64,000 nt of DNA, taken from NCBI RefSeq assembly GCF_000349845.1, contig NC_020829.1:682001-746000 (forward strand). The letters are read 5' to 3'. Position 1 is the first letter of the stretch, and the number at the start of each line of letters is the position of its first letter. Made by a program: the position numbers and the translations under genes. Source of the stretch: Pseudomonas sp. ATCC 13867 (GTDB lineage Bacteria > Pseudomonadota > Gammaproteobacteria > Pseudomonadales > Pseudomonadaceae). Below the pieces are notes generated by a model. It did not search any database. It saw nothing but the letters and a program-made list of their open reading frames with translations, and was not told the origin of the DNA. Positions 9,443-36,423 of the stretch are shown here, one piece after another.

Positions 9443-9447
9443 ATTGA

Positions 9448-9602
9448 CGTTCTCAGGGCGGGGTGCAAGTCCCCACCGGCGGTAATGGCGCGCAATGCGT
9501 CTAGCCCGCGAGCGCTTGCCGAACCGCTTCGCCGGAGGGCAAGGTCAGCAGACCCGGTGTGATTCCGGGGCCGACGGTAATAGTCCGGATGAAGAGAGAA
9601 CG
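9448..9602 (+). promoter_or_regulatory. FMN riboswitch (RFN element)
   Basis: All the conserved blocks of the RFN element are present: TCTCAGGGCGGGGTG, CCCCACCGGCGGTAAT, AGCCCGCGAGC, GTCAGCAGACCCGGTG, GGGGCCGACGGTAATAGTC and GGATGAAGAGAGAAC. Helix P1 closes with 7 perfect pairs (9448-9454 with 9596-9602). It binds flavin mononucleotide and lowers expression of the downstream ribE-ribB genes. The expression platform is in 9603-9767, where a hairpin overlaps a ribosome-binding site. Confidence 0.97.
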
Positions 9603-9660
9603 GGATGAGCCAGCGGGGCGCGTCCGCGCGCGTCCGCGTAATCCCTTCGATCCGATACGC

Positions 9661-10452: not shown

Positions 10453-11559
10453 ATGGCACTCAACAGCATTGAAGAACTGCTCGACGACATGCGTCAGGGC
10501 AAGATGGTCATCCTCATGGATGACGAGGACCGTGAGAACGAAGGCGACCTGATCATCGCCTCCGAGTGTGTCCGCACCGAAGACATCAACTTCATGGCCC
10601 GCTTCGCCCGTGGCCTGATCTGCATGCCGATGACCCGCGAGCGCTGCGAGCGCCTGGGCATCCCGCTGATGGTGCAGCGCAACGGTTCCGGCTTCGGCAC
10701 CAAGTTCACCGTCTCCATCGAGGCCGCCGAAGGCGTCACCACCGGCATCTCCGCCGCTGACCGCGCCCGCACCGTGCAGGCCGCCGCGGCGAAGAACGCT
10801 GTCGCTGCCGACATCGTCAGCCCCGGCCACATCTTCCCGCTGATGTCGCAGCCCGGCGGCGTACTGGCTCGCGCCGGCCACACCGAAGCGGCCTGCGACC
10901 TGGCACGCATGGCCGGCTTCGAGCCGTCCGGCGTGATCTGCGAGATCATGAACGACGACGGCACCATGGCCCGTCGCCCGGAGCTGGAAGAGTTCGCCCA
11001 GCAGCACGGCATCAAGATCGGCACCATCGCCGACCTGATCCACTACCGCCTGATCCACGAGCGCACCGTCGAGCGCCTCGCCGAGCAGCCGCTGGATACC
11101 GAACTGGGCCAGTTCAAGCTGATCACCTACCGCGACTCCGTGGAAGGCGACGTGCACCTGGCGCTGACCCTGGGCAACGTCTGCCCGGAAGAGCCGACCC
11201 TAGTGCGCGTGCACAACCCCGACCCGCTGCGCGACCTGCTGATGGTCAACCAGGCGGGTCGCTGGAGCCTGCGCGCGGCGATGGCCAAGGTGGCCGAGGC
11301 CGGTACCGGCGTGGTCCTGCTGCTGGGCCATCAGGTCGGCGGCGACGACCTGCTGGCGCATGTCCGCGAGATCACCAATACCCCGGCGCCCGTGCAGAAA
11401 CCGACCACCACCTACAGCACCGTGGGTGCCGGTTCGCAGATCCTGCGCGACCTGGGCGTTCGCAAGATGCGCCTGATGTCGGCGCCGATGCGCTTCAACG
11501 CGATATCCGGTTTCGACCTGGAGGTAGTAGAATACCTGCCCGCTGACGGGCAGCACTGA
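10453..11559 (+). CDS. ribB: 3,4-dihydroxy-2-butanone 4-phosphate synthase with degenerate GTP cyclohydrolase II-like domain
   Basis: 368 residues. Residues 1-200 are an intact DHBP synthase with the acidic loop DDEDRENEGDL and the later HTEAACDL. The C-terminal half aligns with GTP cyclohydrolase II but lacks the HSECLTGD...RCDCG zinc motif, reading LGNVCPEEPTLVRVH instead, so it should not have cyclohydrolase activity. An intact RibA is encoded at 15905-16534, which supports this reading. It provides the four-carbon unit of riboflavin. Confidence 0.94.
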   Translation: MALNSIEELLDDMRQGKMVILMDDEDRENEGDLIIASECVRTEDINFMARFARGLICMPMTRERCERLGIPLMVQRNGSGFGTKFTVSIEAAEGVTTGISAADRARTVQAAAAKNAVAADIVSPGHIFPLMSQPGGVLARAGHTEAACDLARMAGFEPSGVICEIMNDDGTMARRPELEEFAQQHGIKIGTIADLIHYRLIHERTVERLAEQPLDTELGQFKLITYRDSVEGDVHLALTLGNVCPEEPTLVRVHNPDPLRDLLMVNQAGRWSLRAAMAKVAEAGTGVVLLLGHQVGGDDLLAHVREITNTPAPVQKPTTTYSTVGAGSQILRDLGVRKMRLMSAPMRFNAISGFDLEVVEYLPADGQH

Positions 11560-11587
11560 TCGCTGCTGCGCTTGGTCGTGCCGCGTT

Positions 11588-11645
11588 GGGAATCGCCTTA
11601 AAATGCTCATTTACTCCAGTAAACTGCGCTTTTTCGGCGATTCCC
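11588..11645. repeat. Dispersed hairpin repeat, copy A
   Basis: A 10-bp perfect inverted repeat (11588-11597, GGGAATCGCC, with 11636-11645) encloses a core (11600-11633) containing ATGCTCATTTAC, a 4-nt loop and GTAAACTGCGCTT. The same core occurs at 12796-12830 and 36281-36315 inside different outer arms. It lies between ribB and ribH. Confidence 0.8.
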
Positions 11646-11697
11646 GCCTTGCCCGACCTACACTCGCGACGCGCTCAGTGCTACCCGAATGAACCTC

Positions 11698-12266: not shown

Positions 12267-12742
12267 GCACCCAGGACGGCAACACTCCGGCAAAGCCCGC
12301 CAAGCCGAACAAGATCGCCATGCGTCGCAAGGCCCGCAGCCTCGCGGTGCAGGCCCTGTATTCCTGGCAGATGGCTGGCCAGCCGCTCAACGAGATCGAG
12401 GCGACCTTCCGTACCGACAACGATTTCAGCGATGTCGACGGCGCCTACTTCCACGAAATCCTGCACGGCGTACCGCGCCTGAAGAGCGACCTGGACAAGG
12501 AGTTCACCCCTTGCCTGGACCGCGCGCTGGAAGAAATCGATCCGGTTGAGCTGGCGATCCTGCGCCTGGCCACCTACGAGCTGCGCAATCGCCTGGACGT
12601 GCCGTACAAGGTCGTCATCAACGAAGGTATCGAGCTGGCCAAGACCTTCGGCGCCACCGACGGACACAAGTTCGTCAACGGCGTGCTGGACAAGCTCGCT
12701 CCGCGCCTGCGCGCCGCCGAACTGCGTGGCGCCAAGCGCTGA
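12263..12742 (+). CDS. nusB: Transcription antitermination factor NusB
   Basis: 159 residues, all-helical NusB fold: [32 protein letters not shown] and [29 protein letters not shown] are diagnostic. It binds boxA RNA with NusE/S10 in rRNA antitermination. It starts at a GTG overlapping the ribH TGA (GTGA), so translation is coupled. The hydrophilic 15-residue N-terminal extension is common in Pseudomonas. Confidence 0.95.
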
Positions 12743-12885
12743 GAACCTGTCCATGCTCTTACTGCGAGACCGTGATCGGAACTCATGCGCTGCCCGGAAT
12801 CCTCATTTATGGCTCATAAACTCCGGTTCCTGTGCTGCTCTTCGTTCCGCTGACGGCCTCTCGCTACAGATCCTGAACAGGTTCT
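12742..12885. repeat. Dispersed hairpin repeat, copy B, in a large branched inverted repeat
   Basis: Outer arms AGAACCTGT (12742-12750) and ACAGGTTCT (12877-12885) are a perfect 9-bp pair; a second pair is CGGAAC (12777-12782) with GTTCCG (12844-12849). Inside lies the shared core 12796-12830 (GGAATCCTCATTTAT, loop, ATAAACTCCGGTTCC). It fills the nusB-thiL gap and begins on the last base of the nusB stop. Confidence 0.8.
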
Positions 12886-12889
12886 GAGC

Positions 12890-36225: not shown

Positions 36226-36264
36226 GTTCTGGCGAAGGCGCCCGCGGGCTGCACGCGTGACGCT

Positions 36265-36330
36265 GCGTTGAAACCGGTTCGGAATGCTCGTTTACAGCAC
36301 GTAGACTCCGCTTCCTCACCGGTTTGACGC
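36265..36330. repeat. Dispersed hairpin repeat, copy C
   Basis: Arms GCGTTGAAACCGGT (36265-36278) and ACCGGTTTGACGC (36318-36330) pair with one bulge. They enclose the shared core 36281-36315 (GGAATGCTCGTTTAC, loop, then GTAGACTCCGCTTCC). It lies 39 bp after lipA and before the terminator. Confidence 0.8.
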
Positions 36331-36423
36331 GCTGGCGCTCGTCCATCGGCTGTTGCCCTCGTTGCTCCTCGCCTGGCCATCGCTCGACGACTTTTCGTGC
36401 AGAGCCCGGTCTGTCGCTGCAGG

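Follow-up and report, generated by a model that had tools for sequence, protein, structure and literature searches.

The window analysed here, a 64,000-nucleotide stretch of the genome of Pseudomonas sp. ATCC 13867 (contig NC_020829.1, positions 682,001 to 746,000), contains a co-directional row of rib, nusB and thiL genes. Two of three related hairpins lie within this row: A within the final codons of ribBA, ahead of ribH, and B between nusB and thiL. The third, C, lies further along the window. An FMN riboswitch (RF00050, 106.3 bits) is also present upstream of the rib genes, at 9445-9605 on the + strand.

All three hairpins were found at the positions originally predicted. Hairpin A reads AAAATGCTCATTTAC-TCCA-GTAAACTGCGCTTTT, hairpin B GGAATCCTCATTTAT-GGCTC-ATAAACTCCGGTTCC and hairpin C GGAATGCTCGTTTAC-AGCAC-GTAGACTCCGCTTCC. 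The pattern that had been quoted as common to them proved to be close to the family consensus rather than the actual letters of A or B, with its geometry correct, and the reported two-sided change in the central stem is real, a C-G pair in A being replaced by T-A in B. The hairpins themselves are genuine but form only part of a larger feature, which extends over 11547-11687 for A, 12743-12884 for B and 36226-36406 for C. The features of the three copies, in window coordinates, are as follows.

11547..11687, + strand: copy A, whole element of 141 bp, delimited by its ends and fold; it interrupts the final codons of ribBA, with ribH downstream.
11579..11655, + strand: conserved nested core hairpin of copy A; 88.8 bits, E 7e-19 against covariance model R1, which was trained on 12 sequences including A.
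12740..12742, + strand: TGA target duplication to the left of copy B, doubling as the nusB stop codon.
12743..12884, + strand: copy B, whole element of 142 bp, with the terminal inverted repeat GAACCTGT...ACAGGTTC; between nusB and thiL.
12805..12879, + strand: right half of copy B, matched weakly by Rfam RF02228 (sX9) over the full length of the model; 24.2 bits against a gathering score of 44, E 0.012 in a search of 221 bases.
12885..12887, + strand: TGA target duplication to the right of copy B.
36226..36406, + strand: copy C, whole element with limits set by eye; ends GTTCTGGCGAA and TTTTCGTGCAGAGCC, preceded by CTAG; right arm lengthened by a secondary insert.
36261..36335, + strand: region of copy C matched by R1; 79.8 bits, E 1e-16, C being one of the 12 training sequences.
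36326..36369, + strand: secondary insert in the right arm of C, limits approximate; by eye, it resembles the insert of loci L022, L023, L031 and L008.

When folded as DNA, the whole of copy A was more stable than any of 200 shuffled sequences (z -5.8), and copy B was equalled by one of 200 (z -3.9). The 97 folded bases of copy C were not distinct from their shuffles (z -1.09, 27/200). Copy B, which lies outside the training set, scored 34.5 bits against R1; its nearly fixed GC/GC pairs are altered on both sides (TCCTCA/CTCCGG).

Spread and anatomy of the family

A pattern of the core alone matched the genome at nine places, and a second variant at four, with no match for the reversed control of the former or for the control of the latter. 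These 13 matches include A and C but not B. Covariance model R1 was built from 12 copies, leaving out B, which the patterns had missed, and L008, which carries an insert. The covariance search, which the original prediction had proposed, returned further copies: at least 39 places in the same genome at E<=1 and at least 35 at E<=0.001, with the best 150 of 1745 candidates scored. Beyond this genome, which is included in each count, R1 matched 45 of the 115 genomes searched from the order (E<=1e-3), 96 of 276 from the class (E<=1e-4) and 47 of 299 in a sample of the phylum (E<=1e-5). Copies per genome are lower bounds in these large runs, in which the best 41, 17 or 15 candidates of each genome, respectively, were scored. 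Additionally, matches occur in 14 plasmid records (13 from Pseudomonas and one from Halomonas) and in six stretches of viral contigs. A search of a phage collection with a single query, the copy at L156, returned no match. That copy is directly adjoined by an ErsA/Pseudomon-1 sRNA (134 bits, L156 2369-2484, + strand).

Genes called with a crude gene caller place the copies nearly always in intergenic DNA, often directly after a stop codon; in the genome of the window, the stop of the left gene falls 19-35 nt ahead of the modelled core in 19 of 37 cases. Orientation to the flanking genes, from the same caller, is mixed (++ 43, -- 36, -+ 10, +- 9 and one copy inside a gene, n=99), and the idea that orientation follows transcription was dropped, both orientations occurring in this set. 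No partner gene emerged beside the copies: the neighbour clusters scanned were ABC transporters, a short-chain dehydrogenase, a ferredoxin-type reductase and frames without a Pfam match, and in the largest of the 25 largest neighbour-frame clusters (24 loci) the member shown is a frame over the repeat itself. At L044, L155 and L167, in three genomes of two genera, copies stand right after the stop of the same gene and their stems differ with compensation; at L199, in another family, the reading frame beside the copy is homologous to the one at these three loci.

Each unit is one long interrupted palindrome of approximately 140 bp. From the left, the order is the end, an outer stem, CTGCGC, a second stem, CTGCGTT, a 10-bp main stem and a 2x2 loop, followed inward by 4 bp, T, GC, TCA and the apical stem TTTAC/GTAAA. 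After the apical stem, the mirror side carries CTCC-GC, CGCCTTG and CTCGC. Sequence is kept in the unpaired motifs CTGCGTT, TGCTCA, CTCCGC and CGCCTTG and in the apical stem. In a 95-row alignment, 18 of 21 unpaired motif positions carry 1.4-2.0 bits and the other three 0.6-1.1; the GC pair and apical stem carry 1.0-1.9, the main arm 0.1-1.4 and the 4-bp stem 0.6-1.1. Furthermore, 107 different main arms occur among 145 distinct aligned copies. Taken together with the pair counts given below, these values show conservation of the motifs, the GC pair and the apex and free variation in the arms. The ends vary between lineages while the core is constant; in G527, two neighbouring copies are identical at 67 of 78 core positions and have unlike outermost ends.

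Several copies depart from this plan. Some have a secondary insert, at most about 57 bp long and with small hairpins of its own, in either arm, apparently in opposite orientations: in the left arm at L044, L045, L048, L049 and L245, and in the right arm at L022, L023, L031, L008, L046 and window 36326-36369. L044 has this insert, and its orthologue in another genome of the genus, L155, is without it. Two loci of the genome of the window, L248 and L251, are short forms with outer stems and motifs and no inner core, as if this had been lost or never gained. A copy in G218 (L322) is broken by other short repeats nested within it, one of which seems to contain a diverged version of the core.

The claim that the core is kept while the arms differ and still pair held up well. 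Among the 12 pattern-found copies, 97.9% of cells are paired and 46 cells show two-sided change, where shuffling gave 12.9 on average; the search patterns constrain the GC pair and most of the apical stem and leave open the arms, in which almost all of the changes fall. In 85 model-aligned rows, 361 two-sided cells were counted against 89.3 after shuffling, and in the 145 copies 2906 of 3041 cells are Watson-Crick, with 34 G·T, 55 A·C and 46 other mismatches; the alignments behind these counts of 85 to 145 copies were fitted by R1 and so lean towards structure.

Covariation of this strength favours a structured RNA, either a small RNA or an mRNA element like sX9, in which the stems covary because the RNA must fold, and the position of A and B inside the co-directional rib-nusB-thiL row is in keeping with such a transcript. 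We nevertheless regard this reading as improbable. Stems kept as RNA should show far more G·T than A·C when read on the sense strand, and far more A·C than G·T when read on the opposite one; overall, no such imbalance is seen: the 34 G·T cells stand against 55 A·C, and in the main arm the figures are 14 and 39, so that this strand shows no tolerance of wobble pairs. The apical stem does run the other way (12 G·T against one A·C), although the cells in these comparisons are not independent. The copies also take both orientations to genes. Thus, reading the originally suggested selection on structure as selection for an RNA-like fold is not supported by the mismatches and is further disfavoured by the mixed orientation and by the terminal inverted repeats and target duplications described below.

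Ends, target duplications and candidate transposases

Both A and B are missing from a close relative, Pseudomonas sp. PDM18 (L061; 99% identity in RibH), whose empty sites read CCCGCTGAATGAACC for A and CGCTGAGGCATGGG for B. Copy B is cleanly bordered by TGA on both sides. Copy A takes the place of approximately the last codon of ribBA, and its target duplication is ambiguous (1-2 nt, possibly a decayed TGA); copy C has no clear target duplication at its ends. Among 80 ribH-region loci, some of them incomplete, a copy lies between ribBA and ribH in two (L091 and L103) and between nusB and thiL in one (L062). The insertion of A has given RibBA a new end, ...EYLPADGQH, compared with ...EYLPAE as read from PDM18 (window 11540-11559).

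Near-identical copies within single genomes revealed the target sites most clearly. In G218, CTAG or TTAA stands on both sides of all four such copies; in G263, four of five have TNA duplications (TGA, TTA, TAA and TAA); and in G443, nine of ten have TA. Short target duplications surround young copies, their type (TA, TNA or YTAR-like) differing by lineage. A census covered 149 distinct sites, leaving out three copies with flanks shorter than 90 nt and counting L223 and L284 as one G218 site. By a stated rule, a candidate terminal repeat is present at 124 of the 149, clearly so in recent copies, and absent at 25. An exact 4-bp duplication stands beside the terminal repeat at 24 of the 149 sites, compared with a mean of 6.2 and a maximum of 14 when the right flanks were permuted 500 times; removal of seven extra near-identical copies left 21 of 142, against a mean of 5.5 and a maximum of 16. 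Most of the 149 sites have no exact duplication, and 3-bp duplications pooled over all end classes of these sites were not above chance (23 against 15.5, maximum 29). Within the class of GAGCCTG-like ends, an exact 3-bp duplication was found at 11 of 26 sites (mean 3.7, maximum 10 in 2000 permutations), and TNA stands on the left at 22 of the 26, as expected for the class.

Terminal inverted repeats, target duplications in excess of permuted flanks and the empty sites of A and B identify the element as a miniature inverted-repeat transposable element (MITE). We are accordingly highly confident that each hairpin belongs to a copy of a non-autonomous transposable element of about 140 bp that encodes no protein: it is short, has no transposase gene, carries terminal repeats, has target duplications and empty sites, and shares its ends with autonomous insertion sequences (IS). 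The outermost arms of the palindrome are the ends of a transposable DNA unit.

The sharing of ends was seen for two end classes, in both cases with complete IS5-family elements. A plasmid search found the end of the lineage of the window, GAGCCTGTTTACGATCT, bordering an IS5-family element of Nitrosomonas stercoris (DUF4096 and DDE_Tnp_1) that is flanked by a TAA duplication. Relatives of its transposase are present in five of 148 genomes of the family (E<=1e-30), at six loci; ends of this kind (<=4 mismatches) lie on both sides of four of these, on one side of another and on neither side of the last, and at two of the loci the duplication is exact (TGA or TTA). TNA duplications accompany the GAGCCTGTTYACGATCT-like ends of IS5-family elements. 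Similarly, CAGGCTGTTGAAA ends border a DUF772 IS5-family element of Pandoraea oxalativorans, flanked by TTAG (left) and TTAA (right). TA, TNA and YTAR duplications probably belong to different IS5 subgroups. It would appear that IS5-family transposases move the MITE in trans and, the stems being free in sequence, the ends can follow whichever such transposase a lineage has.

In the genome of the window, no homologue of the N. stercoris transposase was detected at E<=1e-30, and the ten DDE_Tnp_1 loci gave only scattered end matches with four mismatches and no matching IS. The copies there are thus probably relics or visitors. In G218, home to near-identical copies, the pattern found no IS-length pair of ends, and none was found at its 13 DDE_Tnp_1 loci; a 675-bp end pair at L322 of this genome was considered as an IS and rejected, being an element interrupted by other repeats. 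G263 and G443 each have one DDE_Tnp_1 locus without a matching end pair, and G210 has no such locus. Four end classes are so far without a partner: no annotated transposase lies under the matches listed for GAGGCTGTCGC (the best 15 or fewer of 34 records), GGGCGTGTTGACATT (the best 15 or fewer of 51) and GGGCACCTCT (the best 15 or fewer of 309) or under the single record for GAAACCTCTG, nor within 1.6 kb of the one match inspected for each of the first three. A near-match of 22-23 bases to the GGGCACCTCTAAAAA end recurs in many Enterococcus and Lactococcus plasmids (309 records), with no annotated gene under it among the matches listed and no transposase near the one Gram-positive plasmid match that was inspected.

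REP and REPIN elements, which depend on RAYT transposases, are likewise palindromic, intergenic and present in many copies; their hairpins have a GTAG/CGTC-type tag at the base, and they are not known to duplicate their target. By analogy, a Y1 (RAYT) transposase could recognise the unpaired motifs of the folded hairpin and move the present element, like a REP palindrome, in single-stranded form; its conserved unpaired bases and DNA-level pairing would suit that mode of movement. We consider this highly improbable, since the ends are GAGCCTG, CAGGCTG, GAGGCTG and others rather than GTAG/CGTC tags, target duplications are present, the terminal repeats are common to IS5-family elements, and the recurrent neighbours that were identified are ordinary genes.

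Closer parallels to a MITE are found elsewhere. MITEPsy1 of Pseudomonas syringae, as described in PMC3189936, is similarly small and gene-less, has terminal inverted repeats of IS5-family type and a 4-nt duplication (CTAG/YTAA), and was trapped while moving. The present family differs in having a core common to a class and several different end classes. MITEPsy1 was considered as a member and rejected, a copy with its ends at L349 having no TGCTCATTTAC/GTAAACTCCGC core. The Correia/NEMIS elements of Neisseria are also short intergenic MITEs, some copies of which bind IHF and whose transcripts are cleaved by RNase III; the passages of PMC10969869 that describe them do not mention variable stems around fixed unpaired motifs. 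A literature search with the letters of the core returned no paper on such an element among the matches listed.

Relationship to the sX9 RNA family

The original statement that no described family fits stands in so far as no Rfam family reached its gathering score over A, B or C in the window, the sX9 cutoff of 44 bits included. It fails in that the consensus of RF02228 (sX9) corresponds to the element's right half, beginning with the apical stem and ending at the outer motif of that side. At a loose threshold, RF02228 matched the right half of L254 over its full length with 25.6 bits, below the cutoff of 44; in this search, larger than that of the 221 bases at copy B, six further loci, including L021 with copies A and B, returned no sX9 match at E<=1. 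A search of 276 genomes with the sX9 model returned matches in 11, above the cutoff in four, the genome of the window not being one of those four; in a control, the E. coli matches were below the cutoff. Every one of the eight above-cutoff loci overlaps an R1 match, and of all 30 sX9 loci returned 22 contain one (E<=0.1) and eight do not. Some sX9 loci also show terminal repeats and duplications, such as TTAA in L354 and CTAG in L353.

sX9 has been described as an sRNA of Xanthomonas, and a survey that tabulates the 20 bacterial sRNAs of highest prevalence has it in the third row (PMC9029176). That Rfam models half of the element as an RNA, and that a copper-stress study reports upregulation of sX9 genes in Xanthomonas (PMC10924375), both speak for a structured RNA; the passages on sX9 in these two papers draw no link to a mobile element. 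Against this, the sX9 model begins at the apical hairpin and so halves a long palindrome, omitting the left arm, the ends and the duplications of the present element, and the target duplications and empty sites weigh against it as well. A mobile DNA palindrome is the better explanation than a new RNA.

Maintenance of the arms and implications

If the element is a MITE, the pairing of its arms calls for an explanation at the level of DNA. It may be kept by selection for the formation of a hairpin or cruciform, by the use of one arm as template for the other in replication, or by both, and the unpaired motifs may be kept because a protein, either a transposase or a host factor, reads them.

A rival account of the arms, which is compatible with the MITE reading, grants the pairing no function: new copies are near-perfect palindromes whose arms are kept alike by template switching, and only the short motifs are constrained. 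We regard this as a serious possibility, though not the favoured one. Changes at fixed sites bear on it directly. Uncompensated changes were found at L015/L148, L025/L160 and L019/L157, each pair being the same site in two genomes of the genus; the Stutzerimonas pair L098/L099 has compensated and uncompensated changes clustered near the apex; and wobble intermediates are nearly absent from the family, all of which template switching would explain. Conversely, the long-separated pair L155/L167 has four compensated pairs at one site, which weigh against it unless two insertions occurred independently after the same stop codon. Template switching should, moreover, perfect the palindrome and erase the asymmetric unpaired motifs. 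Their persistence in 145 copies argues that at least these motifs would be read by something.

A more specific proposal is that the unpaired motifs constitute a code on the extruded DNA hairpin or cruciform, read by a host factor or by a common feature of IS5-family transposases, so that one ancient core persists across the class within changing ends, its stems varying but continuing to pair. We advance this tentatively and think it rather unlikely; if it were true, sX9 would consist mostly of half-copies of a mobile palindrome.

The MITE reading offers one explanation for a repeat carried by 96 of the 276 genomes sampled from the class, and the combination of fixed loops with free stems poses a question about how hairpins are recognised. 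sX9 appears to be one half of a transposable palindrome. This would help to account for its prevalence and calls for caution in counting its matches as sRNA genes. More generally, strong covariation can arise at the level of DNA, a trap for covariance-based RNA discovery, and the two origins may be told apart by missing tolerance of G-U pairs, mixed orientation and target duplications.
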